DNA of 62,633 nt, from assembly GCA_000310025.1 (NCBI GenBank), contig FN649735.1, forward strand, positions 1,987,980-2,050,612, in the 5' to 3' direction. The stretch comes from Ectocarpus siliculosus. Its lineage: Eukaryota; Sar; Phaeophyceae; Ectocarpales; Ectocarpaceae. Below, one piece after another: positions 15,562 through 30,230 of this stretch (position 1 is its first letter; each line of letters begins with the position of its first letter). The position numbers and the translations under genes are program-made. The notes beneath the pieces are model-generated. The model searched no databases. It had not been told where the DNA came from and worked only from the letters and a program-made list of their open reading frames with translations.

Positions 15562-16057
15562 CCTAAAGATAAGCCGCAAGAGCAGAAGGCTAGAAAGTAT
15601 AAGCTGGTCATCGTTTGGTACTCCACAGCAACCATCTATGCCTTGTCCTTGGTTTGGTCGTATGTGCAGTTTGCACCACCTGGCTGACAAACGATCGTGA
15701 CCGTGTCGATACGTGTCCATGGACGTTTTACGGTGTGCAAGGCAAGGTTGTTTGAGAGCGCCTTGTTGTGTGCTGCGGGCATGAGAGGGCAGAAACGTGT
15801 CTTCGCACCCGATCACATCTGGCCTCGAAGACTACAACGGGCAAGCTTCTTTCGTGCGTGGTTCACTTCTCAACGATTTCCTGTCGTAGTAGTGGCCGTG
15901 TTCAGCCACCCTCTGCCCCCGCTCTTGTTCCAATTTTTTGCGAGAAGGACGTACCTCTGCTCTCCCTGTCCTGTTCCTGCCAGGTGTGTACGACTGTCTC
16001 GACGAGACTGCCAGAAGACGTATCACCAGCGCGGACACCGATATCAGGCAAGGGCTA
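15562..16057 (+). repeat. Direct duplication, copy 1 (ends at the N gap)
   Basis: This 496-base stretch matches 16559-17054 at a constant offset of 997 bases with only a handful of substitutions (for example AAGATAAGCC versus AAGATACGCC). It ends exactly where the N run begins, so the duplication may partly reflect assembly rather than biology. Confidence 0.85.
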
Positions 16058-16157
16058 NNNNNNNNNNNNNNNNNNNNNNNNNNNNNNNNNNNNNNNNNNN
16101 NNNNNNNNNNNNNNNNNNNNNNNNNNNNNNNNNNNNNNNNNNNNNNNNNNNNNNNNN
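16058..16157. other. Assembly gap of 100 N
   Basis: Exactly 100 N, the usual placeholder for a gap of unknown size. ORFs crossing it are meaningless. Confidence 0.99.
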
Positions 16158-16400
16158 AAACACGATGACACCAACGACAGGGCCTGAAGGTTTCCCGAGT
16201 CTTCGTGGCGCAAGTACGTGTTCTCCAATACGATACGTCGTGTTGGGTGCGGAGGAAACGAAGAGATTGGAATTGCATGATCAGATCATAGGTGTTTTGT
16301 ACGTGTCTCACAAGCGTGGATGAATGAAGGCTGTTCGGACGTGGTTGCCCCGACCATGCTGCTGTGTCGACTGGCATGGAGGCAAGCGTTCATGTACAGG
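16158..16400 (+). repeat. Diverged dispersed repeat, copy 1
   Basis: Similar to 30972-31215: CGACAGGGCCTGAAGG, then CGTCGTGTTGGGTG, GCATGATCAGATCAT, a shared tract around CCCCGACCATGCTG, and GTGTCGACTGGCATG. Identity looks about 85%, with indels. No protein family is recognisable in either copy. Confidence 0.6.
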
Positions 16401-16558
16401 CAAAGGGTGGGAATGGCTTATGACACCATCGTGTCCGCGCAACATCGTTGCAAAGCTATACACACCAGCCATGCCAGACAAGAGTTGCGCCGTCCCTACA
16501 GGACATGAACCCCAGTCAAAGGAATGCTAACGTCGGCAGTCATTGGGGGTAGTACACG

Positions 16559-17054
16559 CCTAAAGATACGCCGCAAGAGCAGAAGGCTAGAAAGTACAAG
16601 CTGGTCATCGTTTGGTACTCCACAGCAACCATCTATGCCTTGTCCTTGGTTTGGTCGTATGTGCAGTTTGCACGACCTGGCTGACAAACGATCGTGACCG
16701 TGTCGATACGTGTCCATGGACGTTTTACGGTGTGCAAGGCAAGGTTGCTTGAGAGCGCCTTGTTGTGTGCTGCGGGCATGAGAGGGCAGAAACGTGTCTT
16801 CGCACCCGATCACACCTGGCCTCGAAGACTACAACGGGCAAGCTTCTTTCGTGCGTGGTTCACTTCTCAACGATTTCCTGTCGTAGTAGTGGCCGTGTTC
16901 AGCCACCCTTTGCCCCCGCTCTTGTTCCAATTTTTCACGAGAAGGACGTACCTCTGCTCTCCCTGTCCTGTTCCTGCCAGGTGTGTACGACTGTCTCGAC
17001 GAGACTGCCAGAAGACGTATCACCAGCGCGGACACCGATATCAGGCAAGGGCTA
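16559..17054 (+). repeat. Direct duplication, copy 2
   Basis: Second copy of the 496-base repeat at 15562. Copy 2 runs on into unique sequence (AGACTAAGCACATATCG). A 304-codon frame (16694-17608) passes through it, but no known domain is visible and the opposite strand is also open over much of it, so I do not call a gene. Confidence 0.85.
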
Positions 17055-17639
17055 GACTAAGCACATATCGATGGTTTGATCCAAGGCGTTTTTACCCGTT
17101 GTTGACAAGAGTTTTCGATTGGGGTGGGTGTTTATTTGGATGGTATTGTGTTGTGTGTACCAATTGGGCATTTGGGAGATTCAGGGGTCCGAGACTGCTA
17201 CTGCTGTACAACAGCTTCGTCCCGTCTGGAGGTATTCGGAGTGAGATATTGTGTTTTAGTTTTAGCAAAGACACGCGAGGATACCGCAGAGGCGTTTCGC
17301 TGCGCGGAACACGTGGTATGGGGGAATTCTTACTCCGTAAGCCACAGCAAATGTTCATGGAGGCACTTCCAATAATTGATATATATGAAAAAAGTGTTTG
17401 GTGCAAAGACCGAACAAAGTGGTGTATGTTGGAAGAATTCGGAACATCTGCCAGATCTACGAATGTGTTTGGATCCTTGTTGTACGGCGCTGGAGGCGTG
17501 TTGTTTCGGATGCCTGGGCTCGGTTTTGCTGGGGCCCCACAAAAGCGAATGGTTTCAAAAGCATTCTCATATTGTGTGCCCAACGTTAGAAATTGTTTGT
17601 TGGCTTGAAATCGTATTTTTTTATCATATCCGGCTCTGC

Positions 17640-20600
17640 GTGTAGTGCAAAGTATGCAGCAAGTTCGAACACCGACTCAGACAGGTACATTCCTTCTAAC
17701 ACAGTGAAATATGTCTTGCTGAGAGATCGGTGCCCACTTTCACCGTCCCGTGTTCCAAACACCATGGGGTATACAGCTACGTTTCTCTGGAACTGGACCC
17801 TGATATTCTGGAAATGTGGCCTGACCTGATGGGAAACTGAACCCATCCATGTAGGAATCACGATCCGCTTGTACTACCATCACCAAGAGACACCGAAAAC
17901 ACAAATCTTGCCGCCCCAACAAATGATGGCACCCGACATCCGAGACTTGCTCCATGGTTGAAAGCAGCATGGTTGCCACGCCATTGAAACAGAACATGTA
18001 CGCTGTATTCCAGAATGGAAATGGGTGGACATGGAGCGTGTCTCGGATGTCGGTTGCAATGGTTTGTGTGGAAGAGGAAAGTCTGCGTTTTTGTAGTCGT
18101 TTGGCGGTAGCGGAAAGTGATTCCTGTCGAGAAAACGGCTGACGGATGGGTTGCGTTTCCCGCGTGTCAGCGTACCTTTCCTACCAAGTTCCACAGCAAA
18201 GTAGTCGCGGAAGGGTATACCTCAGGGTTGTTGTGACAGGGCAGGGTGGAAGTGGGCGTCGACCGATCAGGTAGGCTCATTTGACGGTGCTCAAAAGCGT
18301 GTACCCGTCTGAGTCGTGTTTTTGACTCCTGTCTACCCGGTGGTGTGGCATACCGTTGATTTTTTCGATGTGGGATGGTCCGGCTTTTGCGTTGTCTAGT
18401 TGAAGCTGGGTTACCCTTTCCGGATGGGGTGTTCTCCAAGCTTCTGTCGGTTTGTCTGATGTTGGCGTGCCTCGTGGTTGTGAGAAAACGGACGATGCGA
18501 GAAACAGCTTTCTGCATAGGTGTTGTAGCAAGTGGTTGGTGGAGTTGTGTTTTTCGCCCGCTCAGCGCGAAACCTCTCCCTGGAAATTGAACTTGTCGAT
18601 TGATATCTGCACGGGTTGGGATGTAGTAGAGAGCGAATCATACGCTGGTTGCAACAATACGCCATTACATAGAGGGCTTCCGCACACTCGCGGCGAAATG
18701 TGGAAGACGCATCAGATCTCCGATCCCCCGAAGTAATCGACGACAACGTCGCATCTCAACAGAAACCAGCCAAGGCTAGTGTTTTCGGTCTGCTTACGAC
18801 GGCTCTGTCATGAATCCAAGGCGAACACTACGACGACTTTGTGTGTGTTGACATTGCGCTGTGACACTGTAAGGACTCGGCGTGAAGACCAGAAAACAAC
18901 TAGAGGTGAGGTTGGATGCACCATGTAGAGGTTTGCTATGTGGCGAGATGAGTGTGAACACGGTGGACTGATGTGCATCTGGTAGCCGTAAGGTGTGGGT
19001 TACGTACATGTGTACTATCAGCTTGTGACTAGCCTACACCGCTCACACGTCAAATATGGTACCATTTTTCTTGGCAGCAGCTACATGAGACTACTCTATG
19101 TTGGTTTGAGTCGCAGTGGGTTCAACGGCACAAACACTTTGTTGCGCTAAGGTGTTGGGAGACACTTTGAAAGTACCTGCTTGTACAGTGAGGTGCCATG
19201 GTCCATACTGTAGATCGATTGTAACAGATACGATCACCACGTACTCAAAACAAGCGAAATACATGTTCCATGCCGAACGATATCATTCGATTTATTCCAT
19301 CCCAAACGATATCATTCAATACATATAGAGTTCGATTGTTCGAAGACACAAGTGCGCATGCCGGATCAATAGGCAGGGGCAGCTATCAAGTCTTGTTGGG
19401 GCAGTGATCAGGCCAGTAGTTCGAGCAACTCGTAGTTACATGACAGGTTGCGACAAACCAGGCACTGCTCGGGTGTCGGGTTCGGGACATATCCTCGCTC
19501 CTATGGCGGTTGCACGTGATGCGGTATGTACGTCCATGCTCAAGACGCAAAGACCACAGGACAAACCCGAAATCAAATCGTGTCACTGCGTGGTGTTGTT
19601 GATTGTTTGGGGGAATGCCACAACAGGGTATAGGGTATACACCAAGGTCGAAGAGCGACTCAGACGTGTAAATTCCTTCGCACACCGTGAACGGAGGCTT
19701 GCTGATTGATCGATGTCCATTTTCACCATGCCTTGTGGAACATGATGGTATACGGCTACGTTTCTCTGGAACTGGACCCTGATATTCTGGAAATGTGGCC
19801 TGAGATTATGGGAAACTGAACCCACCCATGCAAGATCACATTCCGCTTGTACTGCCATCACCAAGAGACACCGAAAGCACCAATCGTACCGCCCCAACAA
19901 ATGATGGCACCCGGCATCCGAGACTTGCTCCATAGTTGAAAGCAGCATGATTGACACCCCAATTGAAACAGAACCTGTAGGCTGTATTCCAGAATGGAAA
20001 TCTTTAGGCATGGAGCGTGTCTCGGATGTCAGTTGCGACGGTTTGTGTGGAGGCCGAAGGTTTGTGTTTTGGTTGTCGTCTAGCGGTAGTGGAAAGTGGG
20101 GGGAAACGGACGACGGATGGGTTGCGTTTCCCGCAGGTCAGCGTATGTTTCCTACCAGTTCCGCAGCAAAGTAGCCGCCGAAGGGTATACCTCAGGGTTT
20201 TCGTGACAGGGCAGGGTGGAGGTGGGCGTCGACCAATCACGTAGGCTCATGTGACGGTGCTCAAACGCTCGTACCCGTCTGAGTCGCTCTTTTGACTAGG
20301 GTGCACCCCGTCGTGTCGTCGCATACCCTTGATAGTCTCGATGTCAGATGGTCCGACTTTTGAGTAGATGGAGCTGGGTTGCCTTTTCCGGATGGGGTGT
20401 CCTCCAAGCTTCGGGTGTCTTGTCGCAGGTCGGCGTATACAAATTGTAGTTGTGATTCAACTATTGCTTGGTGGAGTAGCGCTTTGCACCCGCTTGACGC
20501 GAATCCTCTCCTTGTTAAAGGAACCAATCAAGTGACGTCTGCACGGATTGGGTTTAGTAGAGGGTGACTCATATGCGAGTTGCAACAATACGCCATCGTA

Positions 20601-20853
20601 CCGGGGCTTTGCTAGACTGCACTCGCTGCGAAAATGCGTTTAAGACGTACATCAGATCTCCGATCCTCCTATTTGACGACAGCATCGCATCTCAGCAGAA
20701 GCCAGCAACAGCAAGTGTTTCGGGTCTGCTTACGAGGGCTGTGTCTTGTGCCTACAGGGACCTGCGGCGAAGTTGTGTGTGTTTGGGATTGCATTGTCAT
20801 GCTGTAAGAACTTGGCGTCATGATCATCTTGTAGGTGAGGTTGTATGCACCAT
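17640..20853 (+). repeat. Degenerate ~2-kb tandem repeat array, left part (two units)
   Basis: Ordered landmarks repeat at ~1.93-1.98 kb. CTGGACCCTGATATTCTGG is at about 17794, 19774 and again 29114. CGGATGGGGTGTTCTCC or a close variant is at 18419, 20388 and 29763. CATCAGATCTCCGATCC is near 18710, 20650 and 28090. Unit 1 starts partway (about 17640). Unit 2 starts near 19350 and is cut at 20853 by the mobile element, resuming at 27654. Short antisense frames recur in the copies but are interrupted, so this is either noncoding or long-decayed. Confidence 0.75.
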
Positions 20854-21116
20854 AGGAAGGTTTGTTCGTCGAAGCAGATAGAATAAACTGGTGTTTATTT
20901 TGTAACAGTCGAATTAGAATTTGGCTTCATTTTCTACCGGAAACCCAGGGTCACGGTGTTTGGAATTATTAGTCTATAGTTGGGGGTGTCATTCCGTGAT
21001 CGAGTCCACGCAGGGGCTGTAGCAAAGTCGGGTAACGTGTGACAGCTACAGAGCGCGTGAAGCAACGGAAGGACAGCAGCAGCCGCCTAACGCAGTAGCG
21101 GCGGCAGTTTAGAAAA
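20854..21116 (+). repeat. A1 split direct repeat
   Basis: Left terminal repeat starting AGGAAGGTTTGTTCGTCG and ending GGCAGTTTAGAAAA. It matches 27085-27347 with no difference I can see. A second copy lies in the 452-bp tandem duplication, starting at 21306. Confidence 0.85.
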
Positions 21117-21170
21117 GGGCGGGACGGGACACGGCGCAAGCATTGGGGAAGCGACCAGCACGCGACTCTC

Positions 21171-21180
21171 CATATAAAGG
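21171..21180 (+). promoter_or_regulatory. Candidate TATA box of the mobile element
   Basis: CATATAAAGG lies just downstream of A1 and is repeated at 21623-21632 by the tandem duplication. Transcription starting about 30 bases further on would precede the gag-like and YR frames. This is inferred from motif and position only. Confidence 0.4.
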
Positions 21181-21813
21181 TGTGTACTCGTGTCCAACAT
21201 CCATCGTGTCGGCCGTGTTCCTATTCGCGTCCCGCTACTCTTGTGACCTCACCGCTGCGTGCATTTAGCACGAGGGGGGAGGGTGCAGTAAGATATATGC
21301 ACCATAGGAAGGTTTGTTCGTCGAAGCAGATAGAATAAACTGGTGTTTATTTTGTAACAGTCGAATTAGAATTTGGCTTCATTTTCTACCGGAAACCCAG
21401 GGTCACGGTGTTTGGAATTATTAGTCTATAGTTGGGGGTGTCATTCCGTGATCGAGTCCACGCAGGGGCTGTAGCAAAGTCGGGTAACGTGTGACAGCTA
21501 CAGAGCGCGTGAAGCAACGGAAGGACAGCAGCAGCCGCCTAACGCAGTAGCGGCGGCAGTTTAGAAAAGGGCGGGACGGGACACGGCGCAAGCATTGGGG
21601 AAGCGACCAGCACGCGACTCTCCATATAAAGGTGTGTACTCGTGTCCAACATCCATCGTGTCGGCCGTGTTCCTATTCGCGTCCCGCTACTCTTGTGACC
21701 TCACCGCTGCGTGCATTTAGCACGAGGGGGGAGGGTGCAGTAAGATAAGCGGCGGCAAGCCACCGCAGTCTCGCTCGCCGCGCCGCTCAGATAGGTCCCT
21801 TCCCAAACATGGG

Positions 21814-21904
21814 ATGCGGTTCATCCCAACCGAGACGTACTCTCGCTGAAGAAAAAAAATGCGGTTCGTCCCAACCGAGACGTACTCTCGCTGAAGAAAA
21901 AAAA
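21814..21904 (+). repeat. 45-bp tandem repeat, two copies
   Basis: ATGCGGTTCATCCCAACCGA and a one-base variant start at 21814 and 21859. Each unit ends in GAAGAAAAAAA. The units are in frame with each other in a small ORF (21809-22048), whose coding status I cannot judge. Confidence 0.8.
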
Positions 21905-22723
21905 CTTCAACGGCAAAAAGAAAGAGCGGGGCCTGTTGTATGGTCGCACGCTGACTTGTCGCGGTTGATAGCAGCCATTGTACTGCACGGGGTGGAGGAA
22001 CCCTGCGGCATCGGACATAACCAATCGACCCGCGGCAGTAGGGCATGATGCTGTCACGAGTATGCACATGAGGCAGGTGCCTTGTTTTCTGTTTCCCCCG
22101 GCTTACTAGGGACTACTTGCCGGTACAATCTTGTCTGTGCCGCGCACAGAGGGGCATATAGCTGAAGGAATCGACGATAATATGCCCACTCACGTAAGCA
22201 ATCGTCTCCACGGATGGTATTGACAAGTCCCCACTGATGGTATCGACAAGTCCCATGGCATACAAAGCGGCCGCATACGTAATCGGAAAGTGCATTCAAC
22301 AGCATTCACGGGAACGGATAAAAGCAAAAACACATGCATGCGAGAGAAAGACTCAAAGAAAAAGACTGAAAAACAAAGTAGACGAGAAAAAAAAACGAGA
22401 CAGCGAACTACGTGCTGTATGCATAGGGAAAAAGAAGATGAGAAAAAAATAGGGGGGGGGGGTGAAAGTGACACGCGAGGTTCGAACTCGCGAGGAACGT
22501 CAGGTAGCGGTCCATGTGAGTGCATCACGGTCTCGAGGGGCATCACGTCAAATTTATTGCCGCTGTGACACAAACCTTCTCTAAGAATACGTCACGTCCA
22601 TCGACGATTAAGCGACCAAAAACGCCCGGACAGCAATTGATGCATGCCAAAAACTCGTCAACCTGCCGTAGGATTGTCTATGCGGAAGTGATCTCAATGA
22701 AAAAAAAAAACAAGGACACGCAC

Positions 22724-24300
22724 CAGCACGGGACGCGCCAATAGTGGAAGCACTCGTCCGTGCTGTTGGCGAGTGGAAGTTAACCGATCTCAACGCAACG
22801 AAACACGAAGTGATACATGTATCAGCACGGGATGCGCCAATGAGTGGAAGCACCCGCGCTGTTGGCGAGTAGAGTTAACCAAATTCAACGCAGCGGTAGA
22901 AAAATACCACAAATCATGCATCAGTACGGGACGCGCCAATGAGTGGAAGCACCCGTGCTGCATATGTGATGTCAGCCTCAGCACGGGACGCGCCAATGAG
23001 TGGAAGCACTCGTGCTGTTGGTGAGTAGAGTTAACCGATCTCAAAAAGAAAGAACAAAACGCCGTACATGTATCAGCACGGGACGCGCCAATGAGTGGAA
23101 GCACCCGCGCTGTTGGCGAGTAGAGTTAACCGAATTCAACGCAGCGGTAGGAAATACCACAAATCATGCATCAGTACGGGACGCGCCAATGAGTGGAAGC
23201 ACCCGTGCTGCATATGTGTTGTCAGCCTCAGCACGGGACGCGCCAACGAGTGGAAGCACTCGTGCTGTTGGCGAGTAGAGTTAACCGATCTCAAAAAGAA
23301 AGAACAAAACGCCGTACACGTATCAGCACGGGACGCGCCAATGAGTGGACGCACCCGTGCTGTTGGCGAGTAGAGTTAACCGAATTCAACGCATCGAAAA
23401 CGAAGTCATACACGTATCAGTACGGGACGCGCCAATGAGTGGAAGCACCCGTGCTGCATATGTGTTGTCAGTTTCAGCAAGGGACGCGCCAATGAGTGCT
23501 GTTGGCGAGTAGAGTTAACCGATCTCAAAAAGAAAGAACAAAACGCCGTACACGTATCAGCACGGGACGCGCCAATGAGTGGACGCACCCGTGCTGTTGG
23601 CGAGTAGAATTAACCGATCTCCACGCATCGAAAACGAAGTCGTACACGTATCAGTACGGGACGCGCCAATGAGTGGAAGCACCCGTGCTGCATATGTGTT
23701 GTCAGTTTCAGCAAGGGACGCGCCAATGAGTGCTGTTGGCGAGTAGAGTTAACCGATCTCAAAAAGAAAGAACAAAAACGCCGTACACGTATCAGTACGG
23801 GACGCGCCAATGAGTGGACGCACCCGTGCTGTTGGCGAGTAGAATTAACCGATCTCCACGCATCGAAAACGAAGTCATACACGTATCAGTACGGGACGCA
23901 CCAATGAGTGGAAGCACCCGTGCTCATATGTGTTGTCAGTTTCAGCAAGGGACGCGCCAATGAGTGGAAGCACCCGCGCTGCGTACAAGTATCAGTACGG
24001 GTCGCGCCAATGAGTGGAAGCACCCGTGCTCATATGTGTTGTCAGTTTCAGCAAGGGACGCGCCAATGAGTGGAAGCACCCGCGCTGCGTACAAGTATCA
24101 GTACGGGTCGCGCCAATGAGTGGAAGCACCCGTGCTGCATATGTGTTGTCAGTTTCAGCGAGGGACGCGCCAATGAGTGGAAGCACCCGCGCTGTTGGCA
24201 AGTGGAGTTCACCGTATCCAACGCATCGAAAAAAAAAAAAAAAACACGTATCAGCACGGGACGCGCCAATGAGTGGAAGCACCCGTGCCGATGGCGAACC
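22724..24300 (+). repeat. Array of ~21 hairpin-forming repeats inside the mobile element
   Basis: The core unit is CAGCACGGG, then a 21-base loop (ACGCGCCAATGAGTGG plus AAGCA), then CCCGTGCTG. The two arms are perfect 9-base inverted complements. Copies sit near 22735, 22834, 22934, 22988, 23086, 23186, 23240, 23335, 23428, 23486, 23568, 23666, 23717, 23806, 23898, 23957, 24003, 24060, 24108, 24166 and 24266. A higher-order period of ~232-252 bases holds about three hairpins with distinct linkers. In many units TTGGCG follows directly and can pair with CGCCAA in the loop, giving interleaved stems. Repetitive frames on both strands are by-products of the repeat. Confidence 0.85.
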
Positions 24301-24607
24301 GGGGTTCACCGAATCCAAGAAAATATATATATAAAAAAAAAAGAGAAACCATCGCTAGTGTTCCAAAGAGAGAAATATTCGGGATTGGTCGACGTCCGGT
24401 GACCGTAGCGTCAGCAGCAATAATCACTCCATTCAATCCACAGGCGTCGAGAACGAACTAACGCGAGCTCGCGATATAACAACGCGTCGTTCTGGGCCCG
24501 ACGAAAACCCACGTCAGATAGTTTCGCCCGAAGATAGGATTTGTAGACCATTCTAACTGCAGATCCAGGCGCGCGATCGACTACGCCCACGATGAAGAGG
24601 AAAAGAA

Positions 24608-25557
24608 GTGTTCCCGCAACGCCGCCCTGACGCTCGCCCGCCGCCTGCCGCCGGTCCGCTGCTTATACGACTCCAACCGCGACCAGATGCCGACACGGGC
24701 CTCCACGCGGAGCGGCAGGGCAGCGGCTGGGCAAGCAGGGCGAGGTCGGGCGGCGACACCTTCGACACCACGCACGAGGAGGTCTACCGCGCGATCGGTG
24801 GCGAGCTCGACGGCTCGCCCCTCGACGCGCAGCGGATCACGTACTCCCGCGAGGCGTCGAGCGGTATCCTCCTCGCGAGCGCCAGGGACAGGCACCCGCG
24901 GCGACCCCCCCGCTGATGAGACTGAGCTCGCTTCTCTCCGCGGGCTGGTGGACGGCCTGAGGGAGGAGCTGCAGCGGAAGCGCGATGAGGCTGCCGGCGA
25001 TCGCCAGCAGCTTCAAGCAACGATCGACGACCTGATCGCCACCCAAGCAGCAGGACCTGGCCTTCCGGGGGGGGGTGCAACTGGTGGGCACAACCGCCCC
25101 ACCATCGGCCTCTCGGGCCCCCGCTACACCCAGCGCCGAGGCGGCTAAGGCTACGGCAAAGGATAGAGCGCGGATGTGGGGGGACCTCCGCCGGGTAAAA
25201 GCGTGGCTCATCCTGGGGCGGCCTCCGGCAGTTTCAAAACTGTCGCAGATGGAGTGGCAATCCTTGCTTCGCAAAGGCGTCCTGGTGACAGAGAAAGTGG
25301 CGGCATTCGCTCGACACGCTCGTGGTTACTGCTTCGCCTTCAACTCGTCGTCCGGTTGCCATGATCGTAACTGCCCACACATCCACGCCCAGAACCCTTC
25401 CCACGCTAGGCGCGGAGCGTCCGAAACTCCGGCAACCGGCGCGCGCGGCGTTGGCCACGGCAACGGGGGAGGGCGCGGAGGAGAGGCGCGCGCCGCTGGC
25501 GAGGGCGGCGCGAGACCCAAGGCCGCTGGCTTCTTCACCCACGGGAAAGACAAATAG
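24608..25557 (+). CDS. Gag-like protein of the YR element, frame-disrupted
   Basis: Three overlapping frames carry one coherent protein: 24608-24916, then 24687-25148, then 25075-25557. The middle part has a coiled coil (ETELASLRGLVDGLREEL and on). After a run of eight G at about 25068-25075 the frame changes. The last part has a basic, tryptophan-containing region (RVKAWLILGRPP) and a CCCH finger of spacing Cx8Cx4Cx3H (residues CFAFNSSSGC and then CPHIH). It ends in a Gly/Arg-rich tail at 25557. In YR retroelements the first ORF is usually a gag-like nucleic-acid-binding protein. Frame changes may be mutation, sequencing error at the G run, or programmed frameshifting. Confidence 0.55.
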
Positions 25558-25597
25558 GGGTGCGGGCTCTCCCGCGTAGCGGGGGGGCCTACCTCGG

Positions 25598-26805
25598 ATG
25601 GCAGCGCACCTGCGGCTAAATCGAACGGCAGCACGCCGGTCTACACGAGGTTGGCTCCAGGGCTATCAGCAGGTTCAGGACCTGGGACAGGCAGGACGGG
25701 ACTTTGTTACCGACGTCTTGGCATGCAGCTCGTCGAGCACTCAGTTGCGTCTTCGTCTAGAAGGACTTACACGTCAGGCTTCAACTCTTGGTGCACGTTT
25801 CGCAGGCTGACGGAGAAGCCCCAAGTTCCTAGGGCAACGTGCCGGGGACCTTCATGTGTGGGAGTTGATAGACTTCGTAGCCTGGTGTTTCGAGTCTGAG
25901 GGTAATCTAGCGAGTACAGTATCCGGAAAACTCACGGATGTACAACATTTTCATAGGCTGGAAGCTTCTGTCGAGCTAGACTTGTCGTCGCCGATGTTGA
26001 AATGTGCGCTAAGGGGGATTGCGAGGAACCACGTGGCTGTGGGGACGGTACGCCGTGTGCGCCTGCCTGTGTCTTGGCGTATGCTGCTGGACGGGGAAAG
26101 CGCAAGCCAGAACTGGGGGGAAGGGGGCAGAGTGATGTGGCTGTGTCTGTGCTTGTCCTATCTCTTTATCACACGGTCTGATGAGGTGTTCGCGAATGAT
26201 GCGGGCAGGGTGCATGAGGCACACTGTCTTACGAGGGCGGACGTAGCATTGTTTGCTGGCGAGACGCAATTAGTCTTTAGTCACTATCGTAGAGCAGACC
26301 GTGTCGAAATGAGGTTTAGAGGGCACAAGGCCGATCAAGAGCAGAAAGGAACATACGGGTTCGTACGCGAGACGAAGTCACCGGACCGCAGTCAGGTGTG
26401 AGAGCACGCGGCGGCGCGGTGGCTCTTGTGGTGGAGCTGTTATCGTGTCATGCGACGTTGCCTGACTCCGCACCGTTGGCTTCGTACCGTAGTGGAAGAG
26501 CAGTGAGAGTAGTGAGGTATACTGCTGCCCTCCGTGCAGTCAGAGAAGTGGTAGCGAAGTCGAGGCGTAACCCCCAGGAGTACGCGTTGCACTCGTTGCG
26601 AATTGGAGGCGCGACGGCTCTTGCATCGGGCGGAGACATCGCAAAACGAGTGATTCAGAGAGAAGGGAAGTGGAGGTCGGATGCATACAAGCCGTACGCG
26701 CGAAACAATGTAGAGGATTCGCGGCGAGTGTCACGGAAACTTACAGACGGCAGTAGGATCGTATCGAGACAGCCGGGGGAGGGGACCGTCTGGGGGAACG
26801 GATAG
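25598..26805 (+). CDS. Tyrosine recombinase (YR) of the mobile element, frameshifted
   Basis: An N-terminal SAM-like part (VEHSVASSSRRTYTSGFNSW, about 25728-25790) is followed in another frame by WELIDFVAWCFESEG and the core-binding helices (25856-26401). The C-terminal catalytic part is in a third frame (26398-26805). Visible active-site residues: Arg in LSYLFITRSDE (about 26157-26189), the HxxR box HSLRIGGATALASGG (about 26590-26634), the Trp of EGKWRSDAY, and the presumed nucleophile Tyr of YKPYAR (about 26690-26703). This HxLRxGGAT style is typical of DIRS/Ngaro/PAT and Crypton recombinases. The protein would cut and rejoin element circles and target DNA via a 3'-phosphotyrosine link. At least two frame changes suggest this copy is inactive unless they are sequencing errors. 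Confidence 0.78.
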
Positions 26806-26846
26806 TTGACTTATTCGGTAGTCGTCCAGAAACTGACCTCGATGTG

Positions 26847-27084
26847 GGTGTTGTAGAATGGTGTGTACCATTTGAGGACTTGGTCAGTTTTGGGACTCCT
26901 GCGTTTGCAGTCGTAGTCCCCCGGCTAGTATTTGTGGGGAGAGAGATGGATTTGTAAGAGCTGACGCCGGCCTTTGCAGCTAACGCGGCCGGAGAGACGA
27001 TGAGCGTTTCGTGCGTCTCTCTCCCCAACACGTAGCCTAGAAACCGAAGAAATAATGAAGCAATTCGAAAGAAAACAAAATAAA
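26847..27084 (+). repeat. B1 split direct repeat
   Basis: Starts GGTGTTGTAGAATGGTGTG, about 40 bases after the YR stop, and ends ACAAAATAAA directly against A2. It matches 27416-27653 over its whole 238 bases. Confidence 0.85.
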
Positions 27085-27347
27085 AGGAAGGTTTGTTCGT
27101 CGAAGCAGATAGAATAAACTGGTGTTTATTTTGTAACAGTCGAATTAGAATTTGGCTTCATTTTCTACCGGAAACCCAGGGTCACGGTGTTTGGAATTAT
27201 TAGTCTATAGTTGGGGGTGTCATTCCGTGATCGAGTCCACGCAGGGGCTGTAGCAAAGTCGGGTAACGTGTGACAGCTACAGAGCGCGTGAAGCAACGGA
27301 AGGACAGCAGCAGCCGCCTAACGCAGTAGCGGCGGCAGTTTAGAAAA
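27085..27347 (+). repeat. A2 split direct repeat
   Basis: Internal copy of A1 (263 bases), abutting B1. After AGTTTAGAAAA the sequence departs from the left end: TCCCGCCC here against GGGCGGGA after A1, short inverted complements of each other. The TATA region is therefore not repeated on the right. Confidence 0.85.
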
Positions 27348-27415
27348 TCCCGCCCTCCCATCCCTTTTCTTTCGAAGGTGGGGGCATAAGTTCGGGAAAA
27401 TTCGGTATCTAGTCA

Positions 27416-27653
27416 GGTGTTGTAGAATGGTGTGTACCATTTGAGGACTTGGTCAGTTTTGGGACTCCTGCGTTTGCAGTCGTAGTCCCCCGGCTAGTAT
27501 TTGTGGGGAGAGAGATGGATTTGTAAGAGCTGACGCCGGCCTTTGCAGCTAACGCGGCCGGAGAGACGATGAGCGTTTCGTGCGTCTCTCTCCCCAACAC
27601 GTAGCCTAGAAACCGAAGAAATAATGAAGCAATTCGAAAGAAAACAAAATAAA
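27416..27653 (+). repeat. B2 split direct repeat (right terminus)
   Basis: Right-terminal copy of B1 ending ACAAAATAAA. The next base, 27654 (GTAGAGGTTTGCTATG), belongs to the host repeat and continues what was interrupted at 20853. Confidence 0.85.
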
Positions 27654-30230
27654 GTAGAGGTTTGCTATGTGGCGAGATGGTTGTTGAAAAGCGGGCCGAT
27701 GCGCGTCTGGTAACCGTAGTGCATGAGGCTGTGACTGCCCTACACCATCACACGGCGAGGCGTATACCGTTTTTCGTGCAGCTACAGCGTAATGAGAGTA
27801 CCCTCTTGCTTTGATTCACCGTGCGTTAACCGCACACACACTTTGGTACGCCAAGCTGTTGGAAGTTATTCCCCCAGAAAACATTGTAGCTGCGTTCCAA
27901 CACATGCTTGGTGGGATTGGTTTCGCGCTCGCTCGCTTCGCCCGAAACCTCTCCCTGTTATCGAGTGATGTCTGCATGGGTTGGGGTATGGTAAATGTAG
28001 CAGAGGGTGGCTCATGCGCGAGTTGCAACAATACGCCATTATACCGGGAGTTTCTGGACTGCACTCGCGGCGAAATGCGCACGACGTACATCAGATCTCC
28101 GATCCCCCGAAGTATTCGACGACAACGTCGCATCTCAACAGAAACCAGCCACCCAATGGATTTGAGTCCGTTTTGGAGAGCTCCGTCTTGTCATTCCAGG
28201 GAACTAAAACCGAAGTTGTGTGTTTGGGGATTGCATTCTCATGCTGTAAGGACTCGGCGTCGAGACCGGAAACATCTAGTAGGTGAGTTGTATGCACCTT
28301 GTAGAGGCTTGCTGTACGGCGAGATGATGGGTATCAAAACACCGGACCGATGTGCGTTTGGTGACAATTGTCGGTGCACGTTGTATGTGAAGTGCAGTAC
28401 GCATCTGTGGCACCGCTACACCGCCCTCACGTCAAGGCGCACACCGTGTTGCGTGCAGTGACAAGTAGGGTAACGAGACTATGTATACACTCGCTTGCTT
28501 TGAGTCGCCGCGGGTTCAACCGTACTACCACACGCGGTTCGCCAAGGTGCTGGGACACGTCGACAGTGCCTGCTTGTACATACTTTAGATTGATTGAATA
28601 GATACGATCACCACGTACTCAAAGCAAGCGGACTACACGTTCCATCCCGAACGGTATCATTCGATGTATGTAGATATCGATTCTTTTAAGACAAGTGCAC
28701 ATGCCTGATCAATAGGCAGACTCAGCTACCAAGTCTTGTTGGGGCGAGGCGAGTATTTCAAGCAATTCGTCGTGACAGGACAGGTTGCGACAAGCCAGGC
28801 ACTGCTCGGGTGTCGGGTTCGGGACATATCCTCGCTCCTATGGCACTTGCATGGGATGTTGCACATACGTCCATGCTCAAGACGCGCAAAGACCACAGGA
28901 CAAACCCGAAATCAAATGTTGTCGTTGCGTGGTGTTGTTGATTGTTTGGGGAATGGCACAACAGGGTATAGGGTATATACCAAGGTCGAAGAGCGACTCA
29001 GACGGGTACATTCCTTCGAACACCGTGAAAGGAGTCTCGCTGATTGATCGATGCCTGCTTTCACCGTGCCGTTTTGCAAACACCATGAGGTGTACGGCTA
29101 CGTTTCTCTGGAACTGGACCCTGATATTCTGGAAATGTGGCCTGAGATGATGGGAAACTGAACCTATCCATCGCCGTTTCCTCGGCAGGAATAGCATTCC
29201 GGTGTCACCAACAGACAACAAAAACACCAATCTTACCGCCCCGACAAATGATGGCACCCGACATCCGAAAATTGGCCCGTGGTTGAAGCAGCATGGTTGA
29301 CACGCCAATTGAAACAGAACATGTAGGCTGCGGTCCGGAATGGAAATGGGCGGACACGGAGCGTGTCTCGGATGTCGGTTGGCACGGTTTGTCTGGAAGC
29401 GGAAGGTTTGTGTTTCGGGCGTCGTTTGGCGGTAGCGAGAAGTGATTCGTGCGGAGAATACTGTCGATGGATAGGTTGCGTTTCCCGCAGGTCAGCGTAC
29501 ATTTCCTACCAATCAGTGCGCACAGTTCTACAGCAAAATAGCCGCGGGGGGGTATATCTCAGAGTTTTCGTGACAAGGTAGGGTGGAGGTGGGCATCGAT
29601 CGATCAGGAAGGCTCATTTGACAGTGCTCCAAAGCATGTTCCCGGCTCACTCGCTCATCGAACTATTCAGGGTGTACCCCGGTGTGTCGCACATACCCCT
29701 GATTGTCTCGGTGTCGGATGTTCCGGCTTTTGCGTTGTCTAAATGGAGCTGGGTTGCCCTTTCCGGATGGGGTATCCTCCAAGCTTCGGTGGGCTTGCCG
29801 TAGGTCGGCGCGCCGTATAGTTCTGAGAGAAGTTGCGATGTCAGAAATATCTGCCTGCATAGATATTATAGCTGTGCCCCGGCAAGTGCTTGGTGGAGTT
29901 GTGTTTTTCGCCCGCTCAGCGCGAAACCTCTCTCTGATCGATTGATATCTGCATGGGTTGGAGTGTAGTGGAGAGTGAGTCATATGCGACTTGCAACAAT
30001 ACGCCATCATACCGGGGCTTTCTATGCTGCACTCGCGGCGTAATAAGCGTAGGGCGTATCACCAGTTCCCCCATGCCCCGAAGTATTCGACGACAATGTC
30101 GCGTCTCAACAGAAACCAGCCATAGCAAGTGTTTCGGGTCTGCTTAAGAGGGCTCTCTCTAATCTCCAAAGGGAACTACGACGAAAAGTTGCGCGTTTTG
30201 GGGTTGTGAAGTGAGCATGTTGCTGTAACA
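27654..30230 (+). repeat. Degenerate ~2-kb tandem repeat array, right part
   Basis: 27654-27880 completes the interrupted unit 2. A truncated unit follows (about 27880-28690, lacking the first half of the landmarks) and then a further unit (about 28700-30230) with the full order: TGATCAATAGGCAG, CACTGCTCGGGTGTCGGGTT, the conserved CTGGACCCTGATATTCTGG segment, ATGGAAATGGGCGGACA, TTCCGGATGGGG, and CGACGACAATGTCGCG. No complete gene is visible in any copy. Confidence 0.75.

Follow-up and report, generated by a model that had tools for sequence, protein, structure and literature searches.

A probable imprint of splicing at the site of reverse transcriptase loss in Ngaro-like retrotransposons of Ectocarpus siliculosus

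Ngaro retrotransposons of Cafeteria burkhardae are laid out, in the part of that report available to us, as A1-ORFs-B1A2B2 (ORF, open reading frame), with gag, reverse transcriptase/RNase H (RT/RH) and tyrosine recombinase (YR) in that order; isolated AB repeats occur there too, and copies without ORF1 act as a variant type (PMC8547959). The genome of Ectocarpus is itself Ngaro-rich: Table 1 of a recent survey lists 15 Ngaro families, and its accessible text describes DIRS/Ngaro and PAT-like families with no mention of spliced DIRS derivatives (PMC12477816). Precedent for the re-insertion of spliced elements comes from human L1, in the form of the spliced integrated retrotransposed elements (SpIREs), as set out in the available portion of their description (PMC5860796). 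Here we consider an RT-less element with split repeats at positions 20,854 to 27,653 of a 62,633-nucleotide stretch of Ectocarpus siliculosus DNA (the window; assembly GCA_000310025.1, contig FN649735.1, positions 1,987,980 to 2,050,612, forward strand). Its RT was probably lost through splicing, whose imprint would be a precise GT-AG scar, and the best reading of the wider family is that RT-less families arose at least three times from spliced RNAs copied by an RT acting in trans.

By its sequence, the window element is a deletion derivative of an Ngaro-like family with RT-bearing relatives, because those relatives share near-identical ends with it and the RT-less copies have a scar at the RT position. 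Copies are cited by locus handle (L001 and so on), and a slash marks a joint. The parts of the window copy that carry the argument are these.

20854..27653, plus strand: whole RT-less element, A1 to B2, a lineage I copy; left flank ends GCACCAT, right flank begins GTAGAGG
20854..21116, plus strand: A1 (263 bp), exact match to A2
24522..25557, plus strand: degraded gag-like region in two frames, with CCCH-like stretch CFAFNSSSGCHDRNCPHIH and TAG at 25555-25557; two lineage I deletions relative to RT-bearing copies
25669..25674, plus strand: RT-loss scar GCAGGT, with an exon-exon-like junction between 25672 and 25673 (CAG/GT); 2,054 bp stand here in L010
25673..26805, plus strand: YR-like region, frameshifted; HxxR at 26590-26601, Tyr at 26686-26688
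26847..27084, plus strand: B1 (238 bp), exact match to B2
27085..27347, plus strand: A2 (263 bp), abutting B1, exact match to A1
27348..27415, plus strand: linker, 68 bp, between A2 and B2
27416..27653, plus strand: B2 (238 bp), exact match to B1

A1 and A2 agree at 263/263 positions, B1 and B2 at 238/238, and zero bases separate B1 from A2, which gives the order A1-body-B1A2-linker-B2. Both the full-length matches and the split-repeat order A1-body-B1A2B2, a Ngaro feature, had been read correctly in the initial annotation of this DNA. Misassembly, raised there as a possible source of the repeats, is unlikely because the A1...B1A2...B2 layout recurs at five further loci read whole (L001-L005). 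The absence of RT from this copy was also rightly noted: no RT-like frame is seen between A1 and B2. The window copy thus lacks the Ngaro feature of RT/RNase H between gag and YR, but eight close relatives have a 2.05-kb RT-like block there, which is what a proposed comparison with full-length relatives was meant to find. Between A1 and B1A2B2, the RT-bearing relatives are ordered gag, TAG, pol leader, RT/RNase H and YR. Set against the RT-less reference copy L005, L009-L012 have the ends, 5' region, gag and YR in common with it, and carry approximately 2.05 kb extra between gag and YR and approximately 590 bp extra within gag. The extra ~2.05-kb segment holds a long frame with YVDD- and RNase-H-like motifs; Pfam RVT_1 scores the RT-like block at E=0.02 in L010 and 0.0085 in L032 of a sister family, both sub-threshold. 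A 2,011-nt RT query finds at least eight places at 95-100% identity (one covers 45-2011), beyond which come longer matches of 68-71% identity and a set of shorter matches, for a total of 37; the 36 first-look candidates of this DNA search were all scored, and the counts are lower bounds. Relative to the window, L010-L012 match at 258-260 of 263 aligned A positions (~98-99%) and 232-235 of 239 aligned B positions (97-98%), such near-identity of terminal repeats with RT-bearing copies being the mark of a non-autonomous derivative. These ends and the scar at the RT position support one of two earlier suggestions, that of a deletion derivative using another element's RT. The accompanying idea of RT-bearing relatives beside a deletion scar unique to the window copy holds in its first part but not its second, since the scar has 79 lineage I matches and appears again in lineage II.

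The boundaries of the lost segment are the central observation. RT-bearing copies read ATCAGCAG/GTGTGG on the 5' side and GACTGGCAG/GTTCAG on the 3' side, where the sequence before the joint ends CTGGCAG; RT-less copies read ATCAGCAG/GTTCAG. The 2,054 bp absent relative to L010 start with GT and end with AG, and CAG precedes both joints: an exact GT-AG excision at boundaries found in the parent, as in SpIREs. The donor is present in 7/8 RT-bearing copies (L028 is without that part) and the acceptor in 8/8, and the donor CAG/GTGTGG recurs in 10 copies listed, three of them from sister families. In 8/8 RT-bearing copies the AG used is the first after 46 AG-free nt, and the corresponding stretches are 55 nt in L032 and 89 nt in L033. 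In L010 the leader and YR frames keep phase across the joint, as they do locally in L033, and in L001 and L002 the leader-YR joint results in a 415-codon open frame.

RT-less copies of the window element's family that carry the scar belong to two lineages. Pattern searches yield 79 scar matches for lineage I (93 minus 14 with CAATC) and 20 for lineage II (19 in one search and one only in a second), as well as 10 occurrences of the acceptor-side sequence without the scar. For unfetched matches the lineage call is a single base five positions left of the joint; 14 lineage I copies (window included) and 13 of lineage II were read with their surroundings. The joint is identical in 13/13 lineage II copies, and their gag deletion, present in 11/13 (the other two lack the anchor), is unlike those of lineage I. 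Trees drew on 34 loci (14 lineage I, 13 lineage II, 7 RT-bearing), which collapsed on removal of identical rows to 33, 22 and 34 rows; L028, with its YR deleted, was dropped, and L035 was kept despite an unaligned 3' part. Approximately unbiased (AU) tests reject one shared RT loss in lineages I and II: forcing the RT-less copies to be monophyletic gives p=1.3e-6 for the concatenation (34 rows) and p=1.4e-5 for the YR side (33 rows). Two RT-bearing copies fall in with lineage II in the trees, L029 first and then L009, and rooting with the sister families as outgroup places L010 and L012 in a clade with lineage I (support 96) and L029 in one with lineage II (71). On the left side lineage II agrees with L029 up to about 5 nt from the scar (CAATCA, where lineage I has CTATCA), and about 50 nt right of the scar 12/13 lineage II copies have a base of their own (GGCATCCAG), which is not visible in L035.

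Splicing might have left a scar in the sister family too, whose RT-bearing members are ~69% identical to the window element's family, and this possibility was tested with an acceptor pattern search. Of the 8 places found, six are RT-bearing acceptors and two, on C19 and C30, are RT-less junctions reading CTCAG/TGGCAG with leader sequence directly before. For the C19 copy, L044, alignment to RT-bearing L033 stops at the donor CAG and resumes at the acceptor, the two aligned parts overlapping by 4 bp. In this third lineage the homologous donor CTCAG/ is joined to TTCAG/TGG, GT-AG again, at an acceptor 6 nt upstream of that used in lineages I and II, whose own sequence at that point is TCGAC rather than TTCAG and holds no AG. 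L044 groups with RT-bearing L046 (support 100), and the C30 copy, L045, is 91% identical to L044. A splice origin is favored because three lineages, each having an RT-bearing sister of its own, show losses with homologous boundaries.

The census of copies bears on how successful the short form has been. The B/A junction occurs at 122 places in the 189-Mb genome (at most two mismatches), and the genome search that had been suggested for this element thus finds it to be multicopy; an A1-specific tag occurs at 99 places. Pairing of tags with junctions, using 99/99 tags and 100/122 junctions, gave 57 distances; 44 fall in the range 4.68-6.07 kb and five in the range 7.4-10.4 kb. Four of these five are the RT-bearing L009-L012, and the fifth, L008, is not RT-bearing. 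In L008 (C5:539800-549799) a different deletion joins gag to the end of RT, and ~7.6 kb of unidentified DNA lies inside YR. Twenty stretches were fetched, 12 of them junctions without a listed A1 partner: six lineage I copies, three of lineage II, one truncated copy without the scar (L024) and two consisting of element ends only (L020, L022). In the two DNA searches, the best 40 of 341 and the best 40 of 355 candidates were scored. Within each of the seven copies compared (the window copy and L001-L006) A1 equals A2, and the family is young. Scar matches number 99, against 8 copies with a full RT block in the window element's family, and RT-less copies now outnumber their RT-bearing parents.

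The fate of YR in the RT-less copies speaks to how they move. In the window YR is broken by two one-base frameshifts; its core is open in 6/14 lineage I copies examined, and in 8/13 lineage II copies a frame is open through the joint for at least 394 codons, with a changed C-terminal end (L036, L041 and L011, without a start anchor, were left unscored). Polarized YR changes, in small counts, comprise 4 nonsynonymous (N) and 3 synonymous (S) on the lineage I stem and 14 N and 4 S on the lineage II stem, whereas the stem leading to the RT-bearing L010 group has 2 N and 8 S; multi-change codons were set aside, one on the RT-bearing stem and two on the lineage II stem. At these counts no purifying selection on YR is detectable on the stems of the RT-less lineages, and the pairwise omega of 0.16 for L002 against L010 mixes both branches. 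Because the RT-less stems show no detectable YR constraint, we read these copies as probably mobilized in trans.

On the preferred reading, splicing probably excised from the RNA a GT-AG intron spanning RT/RNase H and so brought the pol leader into frame with YR, after which RT supplied in trans reverse-transcribed the spliced RNA. Integration would proceed via a circle formed through the B/A junction, as in the model for such elements, and then through YR without target duplication. A fuller account, to which we lean by a modest degree, would treat the RT/RNase H gene as a retained intron: in RT-bearing copies this same splice would yield the YR message while the unspliced RNA served as both genome and gag-UAG-pol message. 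Both RNAs would carry the A/B signals, such that the spliced RNA could itself be reverse-transcribed and integrated, founding at least three times RT-less families that begin with a YR. In L032 and L033 YR has no Met before the core, which we infer to be compatible with YR being translated from spliced RNA. For YR retrotransposons in general, expression of the third gene and the origin of DNA copies are described largely by models.

The main rival to splicing is microhomology-mediated deletion, or RT template switching between short repeats, with the same repeat reused as a hot spot. Both breakpoints do lie in microhomology, the missing segment being bordered by GCAGGT (6 bp) in lineages I and II and by TCAG (4 bp) in lineage III, and a deletion in DNA or cDNA could yield an identical product. 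Ordinary deletions happen in these elements as well, as the gag deletions and the separate RT loss of L008 attest. Several further points weigh against a splice origin: L046, the closest RT-bearing relative of lineage III, has another AG 9 nt upstream of the one used; stretches without AG are no rarity, 17/329 AG gaps in L010 being 45 nt or longer; the pyrimidine tract is weak; in lineage II the phase in which the long open frame passes the joint differs from that in lineage I; lineage III comprises two copies only, of which L045 retains only the start of YR; and YR itself is identified by motifs. The catalytic residues that the initial annotation called visible correspond to HxxR...Y and an upstream Arg, motifs seen by eye and presumed to denote a YR; searches of Pfam, PHROG and the PDB with the YR and RT proteins gave no match above cut-off, and an AlphaFold model of YR from a six-row alignment reached a predicted local distance difference test (pLDDT) score of 30. 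Against a repeat-driven deletion, 167 direct repeats of at least 6 bp in L010, 40 of them within a narrower zone, could remove RT and spare YR; 57 exceed the used repeat in length, and none of these is seen used among the scars read. Six of the 167 are GT-AG compatible (one in the narrow zone), and the one with a CAG/GT donor is the one used, although this count is a rough guide and no formal probability. The third family also has a different microhomology with a homologous 5' point and GT-AG again, and the gag deletions (two of lineage I and one of lineage II) are not GT-AG. We consider this rival unlikely, if by some way the most serious.

Related retroelements recombine, and on that established footing a single RT loss in lineages I and II might have spread by recombination or gene conversion between co-packaged RNAs. 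Restricted to the 220 bp left of the scar, the AU test is non-significant (p=0.079, 22 rows) and compatible with a single loss, and the grouping of L029 with lineage II has a support of only 71 in the rooted tree, compared with 97-100 in the others; both points also count against independent splicing events. The transferred tract would, however, have to be very short, bounded by the match to L029 on one side and the private base of lineage II on the other, and lineage III, only ~65% identical to L010, has its own RT-bearing sister; we judge this explanation highly improbable. Least credible of all is the second suggestion of the initial annotation, movement as DNA circles by YR alone, taken here as an autonomous, Crypton-like element that never had an RT. 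The open YR core in some lineage I copies would suit it, as would the existence of 569-bp A-linker-B units alone and in tandem, but the rooted tree has RT-bearing copies in each of its two clades and also in its outgroup, the RT-less stems show no detectable constraint (on small counts) when set against that of the L010 group, and the window YR is frameshifted. A splice origin for the RT loss accordingly stays our preferred reading.

The remaining features of the window copy and its surroundings are listed below.

20844..21747, plus strand: exact 452-bp tandem duplication; A1 occurs twice (second A at 21306-21568), with 10 bp of left flank included
22716..24341, plus strand: minisatellite-like 5' non-coding region with repeat families D1, D2, D4, D5, D7 and D8
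25321..25322, plus strand: lineage I scar left by the 511-bp gag deletion, whose ends are not GT-AG
25448..25449, plus strand: lineage I scar left by the 83-bp gag deletion, whose ends are not GT-AG
25557..25595, plus strand: predicted hairpin directly 3' of the gag TAG, a candidate readthrough signal (folding prediction)
28287..28326, plus strand: empty site TATGCACCTT GTAGAGGCTTG within a diverged copy of the flanking DNA, a paralogous site from which insertion is seen to have made no target duplication

The gag-like gene claimed earlier is present as a CCCH-containing frame, degraded and in two frames. The spacing of about 40 bases given between its stop and the YR frame was inexact, in that the TAG lies at 25555-25557 and the pol-leader/YR frame runs on directly. 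Gag deletions were checked as candidate introns, two of lineage I (511 and 83 bp) and one of lineage II, and rejected. The gag frame ends UAG GGG and is followed by the predicted hairpin (25555-25595), with z of -2.3 in the window, -2.9 in L010 and -2.6 in L033 of the sister family. Pol continues in the gag frame past the TAG in L009, L011 and L012, not in L010. Programmed stop readthrough at the gag TAG and predicted hairpin is possible. Scans of viral contigs found no relative.

At the left end of the window element, 20844-21295 equals 21296-21747 head to tail with zero mismatches, and the C22 copy (939326, 939703) has two A copies at a spacing of 377 bp; element left ends may be prone to tandem duplication. 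Length differences from copy to copy seem to be explained in large measure by the 5' minisatellite. Elsewhere in the window, at 15688-17608, two similar reading frames stand ~1 kb from each other, and a run of unread bases breaks the first.

Insertion follows the Ngaro pattern of integration without target-site duplication, as read from the window's empty site and from an AB unit in L007 compared with the undisturbed site at 22384 in the window body. The host segment around the window element exists in two diverged direct copies, 20443-20820 and 27883-28261, with the element in one; their spacing is 7.44 kb including the element. Comparison of ten left and nine right insertion flanks revealed no target duplication visible by eye; left flanks mostly end A/T-rich, and right flanks appear mutually unrelated. 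The L007 unit (530-1098) is a lone 569-bp A-linker-B unit inside the body of another copy, tandem 569-bp units occur in L006 (5499-6637), and in L015 a body unit directly follows a B/A junction. The A-linker-B units and the L015 arrangement suggest recombination at the B/A junction.

An independently arising, precise GT-AG scar would preserve in the genome a trace of a spliced transcript and of an RNA intermediate alike. It makes the expression strategy of these elements directly testable, and would show plainly how one RT-bearing element can give rise, time after time, to non-autonomous families more numerous than itself.

How, then, do these elements sit among known systems? Absence of a methyltransferase domain separates Ngaro from DIRS1/PAT, and a low-sensitivity search of the L010 pol ORF gave no methyltransferase match. 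Cryptons are YR DNA transposons without RT-bearing relatives and without split repeats, and membership is ruled out here by the possession of both. TOC1 of Chlamydomonas, an RT-less element with split repeats of similar order and length, is alike by description. In retroviruses the full-length RNA serves as gag-pol message and genome, and a spliced env mRNA serves the 3' gene; a spliced RNA for the 3' gene is common to both, but that gene is the integration enzyme here, and the likeness is analogy only. With the Ngaro of Cafeteria burkhardae, as far as the accessible part of its description goes, the Ectocarpus elements share split direct repeats, gene order, isolated AB repeats and copies without one ORF, and differ in that the lost part is RT/RH, with GT-AG ends and in three lineages, none of which that part describes (PMC8547959). 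Spliced RT loss in a YR retrotransposon goes unmentioned in the titles and abstract openings of the literature searched, a corpus in which subscription papers are mostly uncovered. Closest in kind are the SpIREs, where, in the portion available, retroelement RNA is likewise spliced at internal sites and inserted again (PMC5860796). Unlike SpIREs, the present case concerns a YR retrotransposon and not L1, the putative splice would remove RT and join the leader to YR, and the short form outnumbers its parent.

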